DNA from: Flavobacteriaceae bacterium | GTDB lineage: Bacteria > Bacteroidota > Bacteroidia > Flavobacteriales > Flavobacteriaceae | Reading direction: 5' to 3' | Assembly (NCBI GenBank): GCA_027073495.1 | Contig: JALSVQ010000101.1 | Coordinates: 1-47,356 of the forward strand | Length of the DNA stretch: 47,356 nucleotides | Shown: positions 8,244 through 16,945 of the stretch, one piece after another | Layout of the letters: each line of letters begins with the position of its first letter | How positions within the stretch are numbered: the stretch's first letter is position 1 | Program-made: the position numbers and the translations under genes | The notes under the pieces: generated by a model | What the model saw: only the letters and a program-made list of their open reading frames with translations | Told to the model about the DNA's origin: nothing | Databases searched by the model: none

Positions 8244-10655
8244 TTATTCAAATTTTAAATATTTAATTAAATCAATTTTTGTAGCCTTAAAAGCTTTAAA
8301 ACCGACAACTACAAATACTAAAATTGCTAAAATTAGTGGTGTAATGATGTATGGAATTATTGGCATTTCTATTCTAAATTTAAAATTATCTAACCAGTTT
8401 TGCATAAAATAATAAGCAATAGGCAATAGTATAACCGAAGCAATAACTACTATTTTTAAGAAGTTTTTAATTAATTGAAACATTATTTCTTTAACGGATG
8501 CTCCTAAAGTTTTACGTATTGCAACTTCTTTTAATCGTTGTTGAATGGTTAAAGTAGCCAAGGCAAATAGACCTAGTAAAGCAATTAAAATAATCGTTAA
8601 AGATAATATAGAAAATAGTGCTTGTTGTTTTTTATATTTCTCATAGGTTTTAGCAAACTGCTTATCTATAAATTTATATTCAAATGGGTATTCTACATCA
8701 ATATTTTTTTTCCAAAAACTTTCAATTTCTTTTATTGTTTTGTCAATATCATTTGGTTTTATTTTTATTTGTATAGTACTTAACCATTCTTCTGAATAAT
8801 CAAAAGTATTAAAATGCAACATAAATAGTGGTTCAATGGCACGATCTAATCCTTTCATATTATAATCATCTATAACACCTACTACATAAAAGTATTCTTG
8901 TTGAGGATTGTCACTATCCCAACCTATTTCTAATTTTTTACCAATTGGGTCGTTAAAAATACCTAATTGTTTAGCAGCAGTTTTATTAATTATAATGTTG
9001 TTTATAGTATCCTTTGCGAATTTTGATGAAAACCCACGTCCTTTTAATATTTTAATATTCGCAAAATTGATATAATTATAATCAACCGAATTACTTAATA
9101 CTTGAATAGGTTTATCATCTTTATACGTAAGACTTGTTGCGCTAGAACTACCAAATCCAGGAATACTAGAACTACTCGAAATACTTTCAATATTATTATT
9201 TTTGCCTAAAATTTGTTTTATTAATCTATATTTTTGTAATTTATTTTTTGATTTTATATCAATAGCCAATATGTGTTTTCCAGAAAAACCTAAATCTTTT
9301 TGCATCATATAATTAATTTGAGAATTAATAACAAATAGACCAATAATAAATAGCCCTGAAATTAACAACTGTAATCCAAGCATTAGATTTCTTACAAAAA
9401 CACCTTTTTTACTTCTTGATATATTTCCTTTTAATACATCGGTAATTTTATAATTTGCTATGTAAATAGCCGGAACAAGACCTACTAAAACTGTAATTAT
9501 TAATGTTATTACAGCAATTTTAAAAAGAAAAGTAATCGCTAGTAAATTTAATTCTTTACCTGCAAATTCATTAAAATTAGGTAATATTAATGCCACTAAA
9601 ATTAATGCCATAAGTAATGCTATAAAACCTTGTAAAATAATTTCAAAAACATATTGAACTATTATTTTTTGTTTAGATAAACCCAAGTTTTTTTTTACGC
9701 CAACTTCTTTAGCTCTTTGACCTGCGGATGCTATTGATAAATTAATAAAATTAACACAAGAAATAATAATTAACAGAATAGATATTCCTAATAATATCAT
9801 AAGCATACTATAATTACCACTACCTTCTGGTCCACCATCGTGCGTGATACTATGCAAACGCAAATCAGATAAAGGTTCTGGTATAGCTAGTATTTCGCCG
9901 TACTTTTCTTTATACTCTTTAATACTTATACCTGCTTTTTTGGCATCAGGTTCTATAGTGTGCTTAGCAATAATGCTAGCCATTTTTTCACTCAACTTGT
10001 TAATATCTGTATTTTTAGTTGTTTTAACAAAGACAGCATTATTAAAGTTATTCCAATTATTACCAATATTTTTATATTGTTGAATAAGATCAGGAGCATA
10101 AAAAGATTTATGGTTAATTTCATATATAACAGTTATTAAATATGATGTGTTGTTAAAAGTTAACATTTTACCAATTGCCGTATCATTACCAAAAAAAATT
10201 TTAGCTAATTTTTTAGATATAGCAATATTTGTTTTGCTTTCTTTAAACTTATCAACACTTCCTTTAGTTATTTTAAAAGGGAAAAAATCAAAGAAATTCT
10301 TTTCAGCAACTATTGCAGTCTCTATATAATTTGAAGTTCCATTAATTTTAACAATTATTTCATTATACCAAGGAGAAGCTATTAAATGTTCTTTTACTTC
10401 AGGTATTTCGTTTTGAAAAATTTCACCTTCAATATCTGGTCCAACCTGATAAACAGTTTCTGCATCCAAACTATGTGAAACTCTATATATATCATCTTTA
10501 TTTGGGTTCCATCTATTGTAACTTTCCTCGTCATTTATATAAAGTAGTACGATAATTAAACCTGCTAAACCAAGGGCTAATCCAAGTATATTAATACTAA
10601 TGTTTAACCAATTTTTCTTGGCATTTCTAAAGAATATTTTAAACCATAAATTCAT
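8244..10655 (-). CDS. ABC transporter permease, FtsX/MacB type (copy 2)
   Basis: An 803-residue permease with the same architecture as its neighbour at 5824-8241: helix at about 19-42, periplasmic core, FtsX helices, second periplasmic core and three C-terminal helices. It shares long stretches with the neighbour, including NLSIASAGQRAKEVGVKK, a GNISRSKKGV turn, and the ending KIDLIKYLKFE. The two are evident tandem duplicates that have diverged in the periplasmic parts. Base composition is slightly more AT-rich than copy 1. They may form a heterodimer with one ATPase, or serve different substrates. It sits 44 bp downstream of a small secreted protein gene in the same orientation. Confidence 0.92.
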   Translation of the reverse strand: MNLWFKIFFRNAKKNWLNISINILGLALGLAGLIIVLLYINDEESYNRWNPNKDDIYRVSHSLDAETVYQVGPDIEGEIFQNEIPEVKEHLIASPWYNEIIVKINGTSNYIETAIVAEKNFFDFFPFKITKGSVDKFKESKTNIAISKKLAKIFFGNDTAIGKMLTFNNTSYLITVIYEINHKSFYAPDLIQQYKNIGNNWNNFNNAVFVKTTKNTDINKLSEKMASIIAKHTIEPDAKKAGISIKEYKEKYGEILAIPEPLSDLRLHSITHDGGPEGSGNYSMLMILLGISILLIIISCVNFINLSIASAGQRAKEVGVKKNLGLSKQKIIVQYVFEIILQGFIALLMALILVALILPNFNEFAGKELNLLAITFLFKIAVITLIITVLVGLVPAIYIANYKITDVLKGNISRSKKGVFVRNLMLGLQLLISGLFIIGLFVINSQINYMMQKDLGFSGKHILAIDIKSKNKLQKYRLIKQILGKNNNIESISSSSSIPGFGSSSATSLTYKDDKPIQVLSNSVDYNYINFANIKILKGRGFSSKFAKDTINNIIINKTAAKQLGIFNDPIGKKLEIGWDSDNPQQEYFYVVGVIDDYNMKGLDRAIEPLFMLHFNTFDYSEEWLSTIQIKIKPNDIDKTIKEIESFWKKNIDVEYPFEYKFIDKQFAKTYEKYKKQQALFSILSLTIILIALLGLFALATLTIQQRLKEVAIRKTLGASVKEIMFQLIKNFLKIVVIASVILLPIAYYFMQNWLDNFKFRIEMPIIPYIITPLILAILVFVVVGFKAFKATKIDLIKYLKFE

Positions 10656-10699
10656 AATGATTGATTTTTTTAGTTAATAATAAGTTTTATCTAAATGAA

Positions 10700-11167
10700 T
10701 TAATTGATTTCAAAAACATTACAAGTAGTTGAATTATTAACTATAATAGCATAAATTCCTTTTTCAATTTTTGGGATAGTAATTGTATAATCCGTTTTTG
10801 TTTTTTGCGTTTCAAAATTTATTTCATTTTTAATACTATTAAATGAAGTTATGTCTTGATCGATGCTTTTATCCTTATTTAGTTTAATTATTTTAATATC
10901 TAAATTTGCATTTTTTTCGTTTATAAAAAGAAATTTTAGATTTTTTTGAACATTCGAAATTACATTTGGTACATCATCATTAAGTTTATAATTTACATTA
11001 CCTTTATTAGCTATCTTTAAAAAAACTTGTTGTTTTAATGCTATTTTAACGTCTTTTACTACAAGAAAAGTAGTTGCGTTTTTAGTGTCGATTGTTATCT
11101 TTTGTGCAAAAGAAATTGTAGCTATCATTAGAAATAGGCTTACTATATATGTTTTTAAATTTTTCAT
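10700..11167 (-). CDS. Small secreted protein, unrecognised
   Basis: A 155-residue protein with an evident signal peptide (MKNLKTYIVSLFLMIATISFAQ would be cleaved near residue 21) and a mature part rich in lysine, asparagine and isoleucine with alternating beta-type hydrophobicity. The end, KIEKGIYAIIVNNSTTCNVFEIN, resembles the closing strand of small Ig-like or sorting-domain folds, but I do not recognise a family. It is embedded between the ABC ATPase (127 bp upstream) and the two permeases (44 bp downstream), all on one strand. Its position inside an exporter operon suggests a periplasmic or exported accessory role, which is inference only. Confidence 0.7.
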   Translation of the reverse strand: MKNLKTYIVSLFLMIATISFAQKITIDTKNATTFLVVKDVKIALKQQVFLKIANKGNVNYKLNDDVPNVISNVQKNLKFLFINEKNANLDIKIIKLNKDKSIDQDITSFNSIKNEINFETQKTKTDYTITIPKIEKGIYAIIVNNSTTCNVFEIN

Positions 11168-11294
11168 TTTATGTTGTTTTTATTTTTTTTTATTGCTTCT
11201 TAAAGTGTAATATTAATATTCGTAATTAAGTCTTATATCTTTTATCTAAAAGCCAAGCGGTCTTTAGTCTTTTATTGGGCACTACTAGTTTTTA

Positions 11295-11996
11295 CTACTC
11301 AACAAGCACATCCATTTTATGCGTGTTTTTCTCTTCAGAAATAATTACACCATCTTTTAGAGTTACTATTCTACTAGAGAATTTTGCATCGTAAGCGGAA
11401 TGCGTTACCATAATTATGGTTGCTCCTTGCGAATGTAATTCGGTTAATAATTCCATTACTTCATTTCCGTTTTTACTATCTAAGTTCCCAGTTGGCTCAT
11501 CGGCAAGTATTAATTTCGGGTTAGTTACCAAAGCTCTTGCTACAGCTACACGTTGTTGCTGCCCTCCAGATAATTGTAACGGAAAATGCTTTGCTCTATG
11601 CGCAATACCAATGCGTTCTAAAATTTCAATAACACGCGTTTTACGTTCTTGTTTTGGTACTTTGTTATAGATTAATGGCAATTCTACATTTTCGTAAACA
11701 GTCAATTCATCAATAAGATTAAAATTTTGAAATACAAAACCAATATTCGCTTTACGTAAGTTTGCACGTTCTTTTTCTTTGAATTTAGCAACTCCGGTTC
11801 CATCAAAAAGATACGAGCCTTCGTTTGGCATATCTAACAAACCAATGATGTTTAAAAGTGTTGATTTTCCACAACCTGATGTTCCCATTATCGAAACGAA
11901 TTCGCCTTTTTTTACCGTTAAACTTAGTTTATTTAATGCTGTTGTTTCTACTTCTTCTGTTCTGTAAACTTTTGTTAAATCTTTAATTTGTATCAT
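11295..11996 (-). CDS. ABC transporter ATP-binding protein (MacB/LolD type)
   Basis: A 233-residue nucleotide-binding subunit. Walker A is GTSGCGKST (about residues 39-47), the Q-loop is in FVFQNFNLIDELTVYENVELP, the ABC signature is LSGGQQQR, and Walker B with the catalytic glutamate is LILADEPTG, followed by the H-loop MVTHS. The SGGQQQRVAVARAL and ENVELPL features place it in the MacB/LolD/FtsE group that pairs with FtsX-type permeases. It sits 109 bp downstream of the HlyD-type adaptor and upstream of two such permeases, so the set forms a tripartite-like exporter. No outer-membrane TolC homologue is encoded here, so a partner elsewhere would be needed for export across the outer membrane. 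Confidence 0.95.
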   Translation of the reverse strand: MIQIKDLTKVYRTEEVETTALNKLSLTVKKGEFVSIMGTSGCGKSTLLNIIGLLDMPNEGSYLFDGTGVAKFKEKERANLRKANIGFVFQNFNLIDELTVYENVELPLIYNKVPKQERKTRVIEILERIGIAHRAKHFPLQLSGGQQQRVAVARALVTNPKLILADEPTGNLDSKNGNEVMELLTELHSQGATIIMVTHSAYDAKFSSRIVTLKDGVIISEEKNTHKMDVLVE

Positions 11997-12105
11997 ATTA
12001 TATTGTTTTTTGCAATCGCTTAAAGCATTGCTATTAGTGTTTCAATTATTTTTAAAATTAGGTTTAATATTAGTGTTATCATTCTATTATTTTTTTAGTA
12101 TTCTA

Positions 12106-13356
12106 TTAATTTTCGTTGACATTGACAACTTCAACATCTATAAAATCATCGTAACTACTGGTTATTATTTTATCGCCAACTTTTAAGCCATCTATAATTT
12201 CGTAATAAAACGGATTTTCACCACCAATTTTTATATTTTTTTTAGTTGCTTTATTATTAGAATTTACAACAAAAACCCATTTACCATTAGTACTCTGATA
12301 GAACATTCCTTTAGGTATAAGAAGTGCTTTTTTATTACCTGATAAAAATAATTTTGTCCGTACAGACATTCCTCTTTTTATAGATTTTGGTAAACTGTCT
12401 TTTTCAAAAGCCAACTCCACTTTAAACTGACCGTTTACAATTTCTTGATGTATTTTTGAAATGTAAATATTATGTGCTTTATTATCCATATTTATAGTTC
12501 CTTTTACGTTAACTTTTAATTTGGAATTGTAATATTCATCAACTTTAGCAATTAATTTATAACCATCTAAAACAGCTAATTTCCCTACACTTTCACCTTG
12601 GTTATAACTCTGACCTAAAATAGGGTTAAAACCAGATAATTGACCATCTTTAGGAGCTTTTACTGTAAAGTTCTCTTTGTTTTTTCGTAGCAACTCTAAA
12701 CTTTTATGCATATTTATTAAAGAAGTATTAATTCTTGATAATTGTACTTTTCGTTCTGTTTTTTCATTACTTGTACTTGTTTTAATTACATCTTTACGTT
12801 GCTTCTGAAATTTATATTCCTGTTCCGTTTTTTCATAATCATTTCTTGCTAAAATATCTTTACCATATAATTTTCTATCTAAATTATATTGGCGTTCTGC
12901 ATTTTTAAAAGAATTATCAATACTCAATAATTGCTCGTCTAAATTCAATTGCTGATTTTTTATGGAGACACGAATGTTTCGTAAATTATTAATTTGCTCA
13001 ATCATTGCTGTTTCTTGCGTAAGATATCTCAATTCAGCATTTGGATTGTAAATTCGCATTAATGGCGTTCCTTTTTTTACAATTTGACCACTTTCGGCAA
13101 ATATTTCGGCAACAGCACCACCTTGAATAATATTAATAAAAATAGATGTTTTAGGTTCTACCGTTGCATTTAATAATACAATATCTTCAAAATCACCTTG
13201 AAAAACCTCTTTAATAGTTAAATCTGCTTTAGCTAAATTGATTTGCTTTTTTCTTGTAAAGTTCATTATAAGAATACTTGCCAACAATAAAATAGGAATA
13301 CTATAAAGTAACATCTTTTTAGTCTTTTTGTTTTTTGGTGTAATTTGTTTGTCCAT
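12106..13356 (-). CDS. HlyD/RND-type periplasmic adaptor subunit
   Basis: A 416-residue membrane-fusion protein. An N-terminal helix at about residues 15-32 anchors it in the inner membrane. A beta-barrel/lipoyl region (GGAVAEIFAESGQIVKKG) leads into a long coiled coil (about 110-240), and a C-terminal barrel and membrane-proximal domain follow. The frame stays open upstream to a possible start at 13389, but I chose the ATG at 13356 because the stretch before it overlaps a candidate sigma-54 promoter (13381-13397) and starts with an atypical polar leader. First gene of the exporter unit running to 5824. In this arrangement it would link the ABC permease to an outer-membrane channel encoded elsewhere. 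Confidence 0.9.
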   Translation of the reverse strand: MDKQITPKNKKTKKMLLYSIPILLLASILIMNFTRKKQINLAKADLTIKEVFQGDFEDIVLLNATVEPKTSIFINIIQGGAVAEIFAESGQIVKKGTPLMRIYNPNAELRYLTQETAMIEQINNLRNIRVSIKNQQLNLDEQLLSIDNSFKNAERQYNLDRKLYGKDILARNDYEKTEQEYKFQKQRKDVIKTSTSNEKTERKVQLSRINTSLINMHKSLELLRKNKENFTVKAPKDGQLSGFNPILGQSYNQGESVGKLAVLDGYKLIAKVDEYYNSKLKVNVKGTINMDNKAHNIYISKIHQEIVNGQFKVELAFEKDSLPKSIKRGMSVRTKLFLSGNKKALLIPKGMFYQSTNGKWVFVVNSNNKATKKNIKIGGENPFYYEIIDGLKVGDKIITSSYDDFIDVEVVNVNEN

Positions 13357-13380
13357 TATTAATTTATTTACAAAGTACTG

Positions 13381-13397
13381 TTCCAACAATGTGCCAT
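13381..13397 (-). promoter_or_regulatory. Candidate sigma-54 (-24/-12) promoter of the exporter operon
   Basis: On the minus strand the sequence reads TGGCACATTGTTGGAAC. The -24 part TGGCAC is perfect; the -12 part is TGGA where TTGC is expected, so the match is partial. It lies about 25 bases before the adaptor ATG at 13356, a normal distance. The divergent neighbour encodes an NtrC-type sigma-54 activator, which makes the assignment more plausible. Confidence 0.45.
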
Positions 13398-13469
13398 TAA
13401 ATTAATAAATCATAACACTCACTTAATCAATTGTTTATGTTTTTACCTTGTTTTTCAAGCGTTCATTTT

Positions 13470-13487
13470 CGAACAATTGTTTGTTCG
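13470..13487. promoter_or_regulatory. Inverted repeat, candidate activator binding site
   Basis: CGAACAATTGTTTGTTCG has 6-bp arms CGAACA/TGTTCG around a 6-bp centre. A second, overlapping GTTC-N6-GAAC pair precedes it at about 13461-13474. The site is 75-90 bp upstream of the candidate sigma-54 promoter and just upstream of the activator gene, the expected place for an enhancer used by both promoters. Confidence 0.4.
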
Positions 13488-13515
13488 TTATCAAACAGTT
13501 TTGTAACTATGCAGT

Positions 13516-14886
13516 ATGAGAAAGACACAAGCAAATATTTTAATTGTAGACGATGATGATGATATCTTATTTTCTGCAAAAATGGTATTAAAGAAATATT
13601 TTGCCCAAGTTTTTACTACTAATAATCCAAAGAAAATTCAATCTTTTTTTAGTGAACAAACTATTGATGTGGTTTTGTTAGATATGAATTACCATATTGG
13701 TTTTGAAGATGGCAGAGAAGGTTTGTATTGGTTGAATTATGTAAAAGAAATTAGTAAAGAAACAACCGTTATACTAATGACAGCCTTTGGTTCAGTAAAC
13801 TTGGCTGTAGCTGCCATAAAAAAGGGCGCTACTGATTTTATACTCAAACCTTGGGATAATGACAAGCTTTATGCTGTGGTCAATGCAGGTGTAGAATTGA
13901 CTCGTTCTAAACGAAAAACAAGCCATTTAGAAACCGTTCAAGAACGATTAACTACCGATTTTCAACAAAAATCTACTTTGGTTAAGAGTAAGTCACAGCA
14001 GATGAATGCTGTGTTGAAAATGGCTCATAAAGTAGCTCCAACAGATGCTAATATTCTTATTTTAGGAGAAAATGGAACAGGTAAATTTATATTTGCCAAA
14101 GAAATACACCTACAATCCGACAGAAAAAATAAGCCATTTATTCACGTAGATTTAGGGTCACTTAACGAGAATTTATTTGAAAGTGAATTGTTTGGTTATG
14201 CCAAAGGCGCTTTTACCGATGCGCAAAAAGATACTATTGGTCGTTTTGAAATTGCCGAAGGAGGAACAATTTTTTTAGATGAAATTGGCAATTTGCCTTT
14301 ACACCTTCAAGCAAAATTACTGACTGTTATTCAAGAACGAAAAATAATACGCTTAGGCGAAAACACCAGTAGAAACATAGATTGCAGGATTATTTGTGCT
14401 ACCAATGCAGATATTCATAAAATGGTAAATAATCAAGAATTTAGACAAGATTTATTATTCAGAATTAATACCATTGAGTTTCATTTACCTGCTTTAAGAG
14501 AACGCCAAGAAGATATTGAACTATTGGCAAATTTCTTTTTAGAAAAATTAAAAATTAAATATAAAAAACAACTAAAAGCCATTGATAAAGACGCATTAAA
14601 AGCATTGAACAACTATCATTGGCCTGGAAATATTAGAGAATTAGAACATATTATGGAACGTGCTATTATCATTACAGAAAACGATGTCATAACACTACAC
14701 GATCTCCATTTTTCAAACAATCGGTTTGAAGAAAATACAATGCTTTCGCTTAATTTAGCCGAAACTGAAAAAATGTTAGTCCAAAAAGCTTTAGACAAAC
14801 ATCAAGGAAATATTAGTAAAGCAGCCAAAGATTTAGGGCTAACACGTGCTGCTTTGTATAGACGATTAGAAAAATTTGAATTGTAA
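13516..14886 (+). CDS. Sigma-54-dependent response regulator, NtrC type
   Basis: A 456-residue activator with three parts. The receiver domain (about 1-125) carries the acidic cluster D12-D15, phospho-acceptor D56 and K111. The AAA+ domain (about 150-385) carries Walker A GENGTGK (184-190), the sigma-54 contact loop GAFTDA (231-236; canonical GAFTGA, with the G-to-D variant I recall as usual in Bacteroidota), and Walker B FLDEIGN with D255/E256. A Fis-type helix-turn-helix ends the protein (GNISKAAKDLGLTRAALYRRL). It is divergent from the exporter operon and is followed, after a transposase insertion, by a histidine kinase gene that is its probable partner. Its role is to activate sigma-54 promoters, probably including the one at 13381-13397. 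Confidence 0.95.
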   Translation: MRKTQANILIVDDDDDILFSAKMVLKKYFAQVFTTNNPKKIQSFFSEQTIDVVLLDMNYHIGFEDGREGLYWLNYVKEISKETTVILMTAFGSVNLAVAAIKKGATDFILKPWDNDKLYAVVNAGVELTRSKRKTSHLETVQERLTTDFQQKSTLVKSKSQQMNAVLKMAHKVAPTDANILILGENGTGKFIFAKEIHLQSDRKNKPFIHVDLGSLNENLFESELFGYAKGAFTDAQKDTIGRFEIAEGGTIFLDEIGNLPLHLQAKLLTVIQERKIIRLGENTSRNIDCRIICATNADIHKMVNNQEFRQDLLFRINTIEFHLPALRERQEDIELLANFFLEKLKIKYKKQLKAIDKDALKALNNYHWPGNIRELEHIMERAIIITENDVITLHDLHFSNNRFEENTMLSLNLAETEKMLVQKALDKHQGNISKAAKDLGLTRAALYRRLEKFEL

Positions 14887-14905
14887 TATTCATTTTCTTT
14901 TACCC

Positions 14906-14950
14906 TTCTTCTATCCTTCTAGGGTTTGAAACCCTAGAAGGATAGAAGAA
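14906..14950. repeat. Perfect 22-bp palindrome, REP-like
   Basis: Two perfectly complementary 22-bp arms (14906-14927 and 14929-14950) flank a single G. The core is CTAGGGTTTGAAACCCTAG. It lies 26 bases before the ATG of a REP-associated transposase. No T run follows on either strand, so it is not a normal terminator; a structure recognised by the transposase is more likely. No second copy was seen in this window. Confidence 0.8.
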
Positions 14951-14976
14951 AAATATAAAAGTAAAAAAAAGAAGTT

Positions 14977-15579
14977 ATGAGTAGAATACCATTAGAACAA
15001 GGAAAATATTATCACGTATATAATCGTGGAAATAATAGTAGTGATTTATTTTATGAAAAAGATAACTATCTTCATTTTTTACGATTGTATAAAAAATATA
15101 TGGAAGCAGTAGTCGATACATTTGTGTGGGTATTGCTAAAAAATAATTTTCATTTATTAATTTACATAAAAGAACAAAATGAAATTGAAACAGAAAAATT
15201 ATCGTATTCAACAATAGATAAGCCTAAAATAGTTTCTGCATCAAAACAATTTTTACATATGTTCAATGCATACACGCAATCAATAAATGAACGACATAAA
15301 AGAACAGGTAGTTTATTTGAAAAAAAATTTAGAAGAAAAGAAGTTACATCTGAAAAATACTTTCAAAATTTAATTTATTACAATAAGCCAGTAAAACACG
15401 GATTTGCAGATAGTATGAATGTATATCCTTGGTCGTCTTATGAAACCATAATATCCAAACGAAAAACTAAATTACAGCGCAAAAGAGTTATTGAAATGTT
15501 TGATAACTTGAATAATTTTAAATATTACCATTCTAGAAAACAAAATTTAAATAATATAGATGATTTACTAATTGAATAA
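14977..15579 (+). CDS. REP-associated tyrosine transposase (RAYT), probably degenerate
   Basis: A 200-residue protein of the Y1/IS200-like (TnpA-REP) family, recognised from its start PLEQGKYYHVYNRGNN, the middle DTFVWVLLKNNFHLLIYIKE, and the end YPWSSYETI. In this family the middle motif normally reads NHFHLL, giving the HUH metal-binding pair. Here it is NNFHLL, so the first histidine is an asparagine. The usual helix with the catalytic tyrosine, of the form YYIHxNPVKHGF, reads YYNKPVKHGF and seems two residues short. Activity is therefore doubtful. It is preceded by a palindrome of the type such proteins recognise. It separates the sigma-54 activator gene from the kinase gene, which suggests insertion into a former operon. 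Confidence 0.85.
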   Translation: MSRIPLEQGKYYHVYNRGNNSSDLFYEKDNYLHFLRLYKKYMEAVVDTFVWVLLKNNFHLLIYIKEQNEIETEKLSYSTIDKPKIVSASKQFLHMFNAYTQSINERHKRTGSLFEKKFRRKEVTSEKYFQNLIYYNKPVKHGFADSMNVYPWSSYETIISKRKTKLQRKRVIEMFDNLNNFKYYHSRKQNLNNIDDLLIE

Positions 15580-15613
15580 TTAGTAAATCTTTGAGGAATT
15601 TCAAAAAAGATTA

Positions 15614-16945
15614 ATGCATAAAAAATACCACATACAACTCATCATCCGTTTAATACTTATTGTTGCAAACGCAATAATTCTTTTCCATTTTCACCAAAAA
15701 GGAATGGTTATCACTACTTTTGTTTTTGGTTTATTTTTAATTTTTCAATTTTTCTTGTTTCTAGAATTTATCAAAAAGCAATTCCAAGAAATTGAAAAGT
15801 CTATTGATTGTTTACTTTACGATGATTATTCCGTTACCTTAAAAGAAAACAAGAATAAAAGTGAATTATTTAACAAAACAGCAAAACTCATTGCCAAGCA
15901 TAAAAAAATCAACTTACAAAAAACATCAGAAGAAGTTATTTTTATCAATATTTTGGAAAGTTTAAGTATTGGAATACTCATTTTAAGACGACATAACGAC
16001 ACAAAAAATAGTATCGAGGTATTTCAGATAAATAAAGCTTTTGCCGATTTTTTAAACATACCAAAATTTTATAATTGGGAATTGCTGAACAAAAAAATAA
16101 CTCCATTAACCAAAATTGTTAACACCAATGGATGGCGTTCTTTTAAAGAAGTAATATCATTAACAATCAATCGAGTAGAAGAAAGTTTTTTCTTAAAAAC
16201 ATCATTAACAAAAACATATAATTACGAGTATTTAATCATCAGTTTGGAAACCATTCAGCAATTAATAGATAAAAAAGAAAAAGAAGCGTGGTATAAATTA
16301 ATGAATGTAATGTCACACGAAATTATCAACACCATTACACCAATCAGCAGTTTAGCAGGAAACTTAGGCTCATTATTAGACGATAATTTTGATGAAGAAA
16401 ACAAGAGCGAACTTAAAAAAGGATTGGCTATTATAAAAAGACGTTCGCACCATTTAACCAGTTTTGTCAATTCGTACAGAAAGTTAGCGGAGTTACCAAC
16501 GCCAAGTAAAACAAGTGTGAATTTGAACAAATTAATTCAAAATACATTACATTTATTTGAACAACAATTTAAGCAAATAAATACCATTGTTAACTTTAAA
16601 AGCGATACTATTCTCAAAATTCAAGCAGATAAACAACAACTGGAACAAGTGTTTATTAATATTTTTTCAAATTGTTTTTATGCCTTAGAAAAAGTAGAAA
16701 AACCAATAATAAATATAGCGTTTGAAGCTAAAAACAACAGCACACAAGTTCGAATAACAGATAATGGTATTGGTATTCCTGATGCTATAAAAAATCAAAT
16801 TTTTGTACCTTATTTCACAACTAGAAAAGATGGTTCTGGTATTGGTTTAGCCTTAGCAAAAAGTATTGTCGAAGCGCATCAAGGAACAATTAATTTCACT
16901 TCAATAAAAGGAGAAACTACTTTTGTATTGAGTTTTAGGCATTAA
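15614..16945 (+). CDS. Sensor histidine kinase, partner of the NtrC-type regulator
   Basis: A 443-residue kinase. Two transmembrane helices (about 8-28 and 31-51) are close together, so there is almost no periplasmic sensor; a HAMP-like stretch and a PAS-like region (about 105-215) follow. The phosphorylation motif is NVMSHEIINTITPIS with H235. The catalytic domain has QVFINIFSNCFYAL as N-box, ITDNGIGIP as G1 and GSGIGLALAKSIVEAHQG as G2. This NtrB/NtrY-like form commonly pairs with NtrC-type regulators, and the regulator gene lies upstream, separated by a transposase gene. The intramembrane-type sensor would fit detection of envelope stress, which is inference. It converges on the small secreted protein gene at 16980. 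Confidence 0.93.
   Translation: MHKKYHIQLIIRLILIVANAIILFHFHQKGMVITTFVFGLFLIFQFFLFLEFIKKQFQEIEKSIDCLLYDDYSVTLKENKNKSELFNKTAKLIAKHKKINLQKTSEEVIFINILESLSIGILILRRHNDTKNSIEVFQINKAFADFLNIPKFYNWELLNKKITPLTKIVNTNGWRSFKEVISLTINRVEESFFLKTSLTKTYNYEYLIISLETIQQLIDKKEKEAWYKLMNVMSHEIINTITPISSLAGNLGSLLDDNFDEENKSELKKGLAIIKRRSHHLTSFVNSYRKLAELPTPSKTSVNLNKLIQNTLHLFEQQFKQINTIVNFKSDTILKIQADKQQLEQVFINIFSNCFYALEKVEKPIINIAFEAKNNSTQVRITDNGIGIPDAIKNQIFVPYFTTRKDGSGIGLALAKSIVEAHQGTINFTSIKGETTFVLSFRH

Follow-up and report, generated by a model that had tools for sequence, protein, structure and literature searches.

A degenerate RAYT unit with a REP-like hairpin, probably inserted between the genes of a two-component system in a Flavobacteriaceae bacterium

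Results

A RAYT (TnpA-REP, Y1/HUH transposase) unit with its own hairpin appears to have inserted between the genes of a response regulator and its histidine kinase in a Flavobacteriaceae bacterium and to have decayed thereafter, a history to which we assign a probability of about 0.83. The unit would comprise the gene of a Y1/HUH single-strand transposase together with its own REP-like hairpin, and would have entered between the regulator stop codon and the kinase start, oriented like both genes, presumably by the normal single-strand chemistry of RAYTs. A matching right hairpin would once have been present and was presumably lost later. Following insertion, the metal-binding histidine and the Tyr-to-Asn spacing of the transposase would also have disappeared, and no matching hairpin is left on the right. 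The regulator, RAYT and kinase genes are probably on one transcript with the kinase third; the kinase would be uncoupled from the regulator's stop codon, and its level may have changed in either direction.

Layout of the locus

The stretch of DNA analysed (the window) comprises 47,356 nucleotides and belongs to a source genome of 2.35 Mb in 192 contigs (88.6% complete). Open reading frames and domain matches bear out the layout described in a first-pass annotation, with a RAYT-like gene and a palindrome located between a sigma-54 regulator and a kinase. The features of interest are:

13516–14886, + strand: open reading frame of a sigma-54-dependent response regulator (Response_reg, Sigma54_activat and HTH_8 domain matches)
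14887–15613, + strand: inserted stretch, 727 bp, missing from the same gene junction in relatives
14906–14950, no strand: perfect palindrome of 45 bp (22-bp arms, 1-nt loop), the putative left-end REP-like hairpin
14977–15579, + strand: gene derived from a RAYT (TnpA-REP, Y1/HUH transposase), 200 codons, open
15145–15153, + strand: HUH site, here Asn57-Phe58-His59
15379–15390, + strand: catalytic Tyr135, with Asn-Lys-Pro next and the Y-I-H-x-N-P motif short of two residues
15562–15589, no strand: weak AT-rich hairpin (12-bp arms, 4-nt loop) that spans the RAYT stop codon
15614–16945, + strand: open reading frame of a sensor histidine kinase, the regulator's partner (HATPase_c match)

The regulator translation contains a receiver, an AAA+ domain with GAFTDA (identified by eye) and a Fis-type HTH. 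The G+C content of the inserted stretch is 24%, compared with 32% for the regulator and 28% for the kinase. Transposase and palindrome had been said to occupy exactly the gap between the two genes: both do sit there, but the inserted stretch (14887–15613) is slightly wider than the 14906–15579 first assigned to them. An Rfam scan of the whole window returned a tRNA as its sole match. Divergent from the regulator, on the - strand at 8244–13389, lies the gene for a 427-aa HlyD-type adaptor (the nearest NCBIfam model, DarC, matches below its cut-off), with an ABC ATPase and a large permease-like protein beyond it (by eye from the translations). The genes of this region beside the two-component pair likely encode an export system.

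The regulator-kinase junction is empty in relatives

A kinase scan of species-level genomes gave 28 loci, 26 of which hold near full-length orthologues (kinase identity 52–61%) from Tenacibaculum, Polaribacter, Lutibacter, Ulvibacter and unclassified Flavobacteriaceae. In all 26, a regulator orthologue (68–72% identity) is located directly 5' of the kinase with a spacing of -1 to +4 nt by extrapolation; 18 of these loci allow a kinase ATG to be assigned at -1 to +5 nt, and in 8 none was assigned. None of the 26 has a RAYT match at the regulator-kinase junction. A second draw comprised 397 family genomes, with the kinase present in 8, the source genome among these. In each of the 7 other loci the regulator adjoins the kinase and RAYT is absent between them, the extrapolated spacings being short in five and, in the most distant pair, ~25 and ~120 nt. 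Records already counted account for three of these loci, giving 30 distinct empty sites in total.

Hence, 14887–15613 is an insertion in the source lineage, a conclusion well supported because 30 distinct loci lack a RAYT at this junction. The earlier reading of the locus as an insertion into an operon is upheld in both samples (26/26 and 7/7, three shared), and the comparison with relatives that had been proposed as its check yielded junctions free of RAYT. An empty site in a close relative was not encountered, which leaves the limits of the unit approximate and no target motif defined. None of 11 RAYT-bearing genomes carries the kinase too (kinase search, E 1e-80). A 2021 paper (PMC8266576), in its statement on tnpA-REP, reports no evidence of mobility, which counts against insertion of the unit.

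The inserted gene encodes a predicted Y1/HUH transposase

Pfam gave no match for the RAYT-like protein, even at E 10. The NCBIfam model REP_Tyr_transpos matches it at 34.9 bits, under the 80-bit cut-off, and the match is below cut-off for the four of four relatives tried too. An AlphaFold model (pLDDT 91, from an alignment of 46 sequences) has as its best PDB match 4ER8 (Foldseek E 1e-7), the REP-associated transposase in complex with its REP hairpin. The two superpose with Z 15.7 and 2.6 Å over 156 residues, compared with Z ~9 for IS608, and a profile match to 4ER8 was obtained at E 1.5e-6. The tRNA-His guanylyltransferases, which rank second in Foldseek and also occur among the IS608-type matches, were rejected as they fall to Z ≤6.7 in structural alignment. 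Judged by the model, the protein encoded at 14977–15579 has a Y1/HUH transposase (RAYT) fold.

Genomes were considered RAYT-positive when a search with the window protein gave a match at E ≤1e-10, a definition that places more distant RAYTs outside it; 62 of the 397 family genomes qualify, the source genome included. The three nearest RAYT relatives are 62–67% identical to the window protein. From 74 other matched places, 69 were read, which together with the window form a set of 70 RAYT loci.

The palindrome goes with the transposase gene

The palindrome at 14906–14950 is the longest perfect hairpin in the window (loop up to 8), the next longest having 12-bp arms, while 20 order-1 Markov simulations of the window yielded maximal arms of 9–15 bp. 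For the RAYT loci, a flanking hairpin was scored when it exceeded the best of 700 mononucleotide shuffles, with hairpins overlapping gene ends allowed. Such a hairpin was found in 54 of the 70 loci, window included: 30 have it on both sides, and 24 on one side (13 left alone, 11 right alone). Left and right hairpins share sequence in 28 of the 30 two-sided units, the exceptions being the window and L100. The window ranks among the two-sided units through its weak right hairpin, 15562–15589, which is palindromic (score 22; best shuffle 19). This hairpin was rejected as a cognate right end, as it scores 10 against the left one, a value that the right hairpins of all 29 other units equal or exceed. 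A matching flanking hairpin is therefore found in the window on the left side only.

The palindrome core (14915–14941, 27 nt) aligns gapless with seven hairpins, from L003 (both), L004, L006, L007, L008 and L067. Both-side changes are seen in 8 of 13 pairs, 99% of cells pair, and the alignment was reached by 0/500 shuffles on four measures and 2/500 on a fifth; these hairpins were picked for pairing and equal length and come from related loci, which inflates the counts, and the compensated differences alone carry weight. The window core agrees with the L003 core in 22 of 27 letters, and the five differences comprise two compensated pairs and the loop (by eye). This agreement with the hairpins of near relatives favours palindrome and transposase being one unit, as the first-pass annotation had treated them. 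On both strands, the sequence next to the window hairpin is free of GT[AG]G, which does not form a common foot across the hairpin set either (by eye); similarly, no guide tetranucleotide common to the hairpin feet was seen by eye.

The common form of the family's hairpins, CCTnnnAGG-TTT-loop-AAA-CCTnnnAGG, occurs in 100 of the 397 genomes. It was found in 48 of 62 RAYT-positive versus 52 of 335 RAYT-negative genomes (Fisher 1e-21, kinship not corrected for), and a reversed-pattern control gave 0 in every row. In eight genomes chosen for one hairpin form, 3–19 copies each were counted, flanking copies included; four RAYT-negative genomes have 0 of one hairpin form, G021 having 2 under a wider pattern. 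The 52 RAYT-negative genomes with the common form, and the 16 of 70 RAYT loci without a hairpin above control, weigh against the proposed history. On sequence grounds, the palindrome is nonetheless strongly supported as the RAYT unit's own REP-like hairpin, because hairpins of similar sequence, differing by compensated changes, accompany the nearest RAYT units and because hairpins of this kind go with RAYT across the 397 family genomes.

In the source genome the common form is absent, and a single palindrome represents its own form. RAYT gene, palindrome and inserted stretch are each single in the assembly, with other DNA matches short and weak, and dispersed cognate hairpins were not found in the source genome (single copy, 88.6% complete). 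The first-pass annotation had named a lack of palindrome copies elsewhere in the genome as grounds for abandoning the insertion and, taken literally, this is what we observe. The single copy does not overturn the insertion, because the empty sites are independent evidence and because the nearest RAYT relatives hold just 1–3 own-form hairpins (G291, G088 and G116 with 2, 3 and 1, mostly flanking). We likewise dropped the single copy as a sign of decay, low copy number being usual in these nearest relatives.

Further observations concern the hairpins themselves. G036 has two RAYT genes (L025, L087) with different flanking hairpin forms and copies of both, and G088 has 3 hairpins in the form of its own unit, 33 in the common form and a second, broken RAYT match. 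These two genomes hint that each RAYT may have its own hairpin family. Nested within each hairpin arm there is often a shorter inverted repeat whose halves are 3 nt apart (CCTnnnAGG): in a survey omitting right hairpins that overlap the stop codon, inner arms of at least 4 bp occur in 59% of 81 RAYT-locus hairpins (from related loci) versus 2.5% in shuffles. RAYT-locus palindromes could thus alternatively fold as two small hairpins. At L007 and L008, the final RAYT residues and the stop codon fall within the right hairpin.

Active-site residues are altered in the window protein

Relatives mostly have N-H-F-H and Y-[IV]-H-x-N-P, where the window protein has N-N-F-H and Y-N-K-P. The first HUH histidine is Asn in the window and His in 66 of 69 relatives; the second is conserved in 69/69, and Phe is found inside HUH in 65/69. 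A two-residue gap follows Tyr135 in the window and in none of the 69 relatives. The window protein keeps the catalytic Tyr and the second HUH His, and has neither the HUH motif nor the Tyr-then-Y---NP arrangement by which RAYTs are recognised. In their account of the active site, Quentin et al. 2018 (PMC6006769) assign the histidines of HUH, together with the Y---NP Asn, to the metal-binding site. The window protein is altered at both metal-binding elements, since its first HUH His is replaced and its Tyr-to-Asn spacing is shortened.

The window deviates at 4 of 25 positions conserved in at least 90% of the other sequences (the third-highest count among 53, shared), and its branch length is 0.30 versus 0.15 for its sister L004. 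Pairwise NG86 dN/dS is 0.12–0.20 against L003, L004 and L005, with dS >1 and thus rough. Relaxed selection was not detected by codon position, private changes not differing in this respect from the sister's (p 0.72). A long neutral phase is therefore not supported, given the open frame, the dN/dS of 0.12–0.20 and the p of 0.72. The best reading appears to be that the RAYT gene was constrained until recently and then lost catalysis. The window RAYT protein is presumably inactive, and the unit probably immobile, because the metal-binding His, the Tyr-to-Asn spacing and a matching right hairpin are all gone.

Consequences for the operon and alternative readings

A kinase start at or next to the regulator stop codon is the usual layout for translational coupling. 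Coupling would be broken here, because the kinase no longer starts beside the regulator's stop codon. The 104-nt leader with the palindrome has a predicted RNA fold of -40 kcal/mol (z -8.5), in line with the earlier suggestion of a strong mRNA hairpin. No terminator-like sites were scored on either strand, and the palindrome was rejected as a terminator on that basis. Sigma-70-type promoters number 6 versus 7.3 in shuffles. A Bacteroidetes-type promoter consists of TAnnTTTG with TTG 17–23 nt upstream; no site with both elements of this consensus was found in 13301–15700, where bare TAnnTTTG occurs twice, once within the regulator gene and once within the RAYT gene. By default, we infer that read-through transcription covers all three genes.

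It is conceivable that the dead RAYT is kept as a regulator that binds its own upstream palindrome (as RNA or ssDNA) and so sets kinase:regulator output. The 200-codon frame is open with dN/dS at the low values given above. Moreover, there are 78 private nucleotide changes, a random one of which creates a stop in 7.2% of cases, so that the chance of zero stops were all 78 neutral is 0.003. The left palindrome is perfect with no matching right one left, and the fold is confidently predicted (pLDDT 91). However, selection prior to the lesions accounts equally for the open frame, and the longer branch and the changes at conserved positions resemble decay. The arrangement is known from one genome only, RAYT lying between the genes at no other regulator-kinase locus examined. 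We consider such a binding role very improbable. A built-in control module, in which dead transposase and palindrome together set the kinase:regulator ratio of the two-component operon, strikes us as very improbable.

An ancestral regulator-RAYT-kinase arrangement that was lost in relatives, or an assembly chimera, would also produce the observed layout; there is one filled site only, and the assembly of the source genome is fragmented. Loss is unparsimonious in view of 30 distinct empty sites in several genera, while a chimera needs two joins precisely at gene ends with both genes still in order, and we regard either as highly implausible. Equally implausible is a palindrome that serves the regulator gene as terminator or regulatory hairpin, with RAYT a neighbour by coincidence: the palindrome starts 20 nt past the regulator stop codon (19 nt between) and the leader RNA does fold at -40 kcal/mol, but there are 0 terminator-like sites, the 26 orthologous loci leave no space for a hairpin between the genes, and the palindrome core matches the hairpins of the nearest RAYT units.

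Relation to known elements

The inserted unit most resembles TnpA-Y1 subclass 2.6 (Bertels group 5), which in the description by Quentin et al. 2018 (PMC6006769) is mostly from Bacteroidetes, with YIH[QN]NP and an SS motif, and has atypical hairpins without GT[AG]G and with copies elsewhere in the genome. Shared features are the Bacteroidetes host, the relatives' similar length together with their YIHxNP and their SS motif downstream of the Tyr region, the presence of flanking hairpins that lack GT[AG]G, and hairpin copies elsewhere in the relatives' genomes. In the window, the first HUH His is missing, as is the Y-x3-N spacing, one matching hairpin is present and copies elsewhere are absent. 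Compared by published motifs, host and GT[AG]G-free hairpin agree with the subclass, while NH[LIV]H and YIH[QN]NP are absent from the window protein. The relatives too differ, having mostly Phe inside HUH where the table of the same paper gives NH[LIV]H for subclass 2.6; NH[IFV]H, as given there for subclass 2.4 (Bertels group 4), permits the Phe seen here. Subclass 2.4 is likewise found in Bacteroidetes, but its REPs bear GT[AG]G and its table row has no SS motif, neither of which fits here.

The fold, a transposase gene beside its own palindrome and a usually single gene copy are shared with REPtrons and E. coli TnpA-REP (4ER8), from which the window differs by the lack of a GTAG foot, a perfect rather than bulged stem and a broken active site; identity to 4ER8 is 15% in structural alignment. 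IS200/IS605 elements are alike in Y1/HUH fold (IS608 Z ~9) and subterminal hairpins. They are unlike in that the relatives' Tyr context is class 2 Y---NP, not Y---Q, and the window unit is not multi-copy: in place of several near-identical copies with defined ends there is one, whose ends are not defined. Likened by description, TIRtrons/TIRYTs share a RAYT-like gene and long flanking repeats that are not GTAG REPs, Di Nocera et al. 2013 describing RAYT-like genes with long, partly self-complementary repeats.

The window unit would thus be a degenerate derivative of Bacteroidetes TnpA-REP units known since 2018, as opposed to an active member, because the homologous unit fails two functional definers. 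In its remarks on these genes, PMC8266576 characterises RAYT genes as mostly single-copy and housekeeping-like. That a RAYT gene and its hairpin occupy a junction empty in 30 relatives provides evidence for whole units reaching new places. The locus also suggests the sequel of arrival, with altered catalytic residues and just one matching hairpin. The element type is already known, and the new aspect is the empty site for a whole RAYT unit; the papers covered by our literature search contain nothing on RAYT insertion in a two-component operon. Furthermore, a Flavobacteriaceae hairpin class tied to RAYT genes makes hairpin recognition testable outside Proteobacteria.

RAYT-HemF and other fusions

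Among the papers covered by our literature search, none deals with RAYT-HemF fusion. In 16 of the 70 RAYT loci (L081, L082, L084–L089, L092, L095–L097, L099–L101 and L103), RAYT and HemF (oxygen-dependent coproporphyrinogen oxidase) are fused within a single open frame. Pfam matches for three fusions include PF01218 at E ~1e-133 in all three and PF01797 in two. HemF itself is found in 331 of the 397 family genomes, with one match per listed row and three in G250. Within the fusions, HemF starts with ATG in 5 of 16 and has none of ATG, GTG or TTG in 11. A RAYT-class hairpin lies in frame just 5' of HemF and is translated as a linker in 11 of 16, e.g. SDLSGFENLTGL. Since 11/16 have none of these three codons at the expected HemF start and the hairpin linker is translated in 11/16, fusion strains may make HemF only as a transposase fusion. 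Such an element would then be part of a core metabolic enzyme.

RAYT is located upstream of a separate hemF in seven loci (L076, L077, L080, L090, L093, L094 and L102), two of them ~1 kb off, and these unfused arrangements are possible forerunners of the fusion. At L105, a RAYT-like sequence, a PIF1-type helicase and an HRDC domain are combined in one 954-residue open frame.
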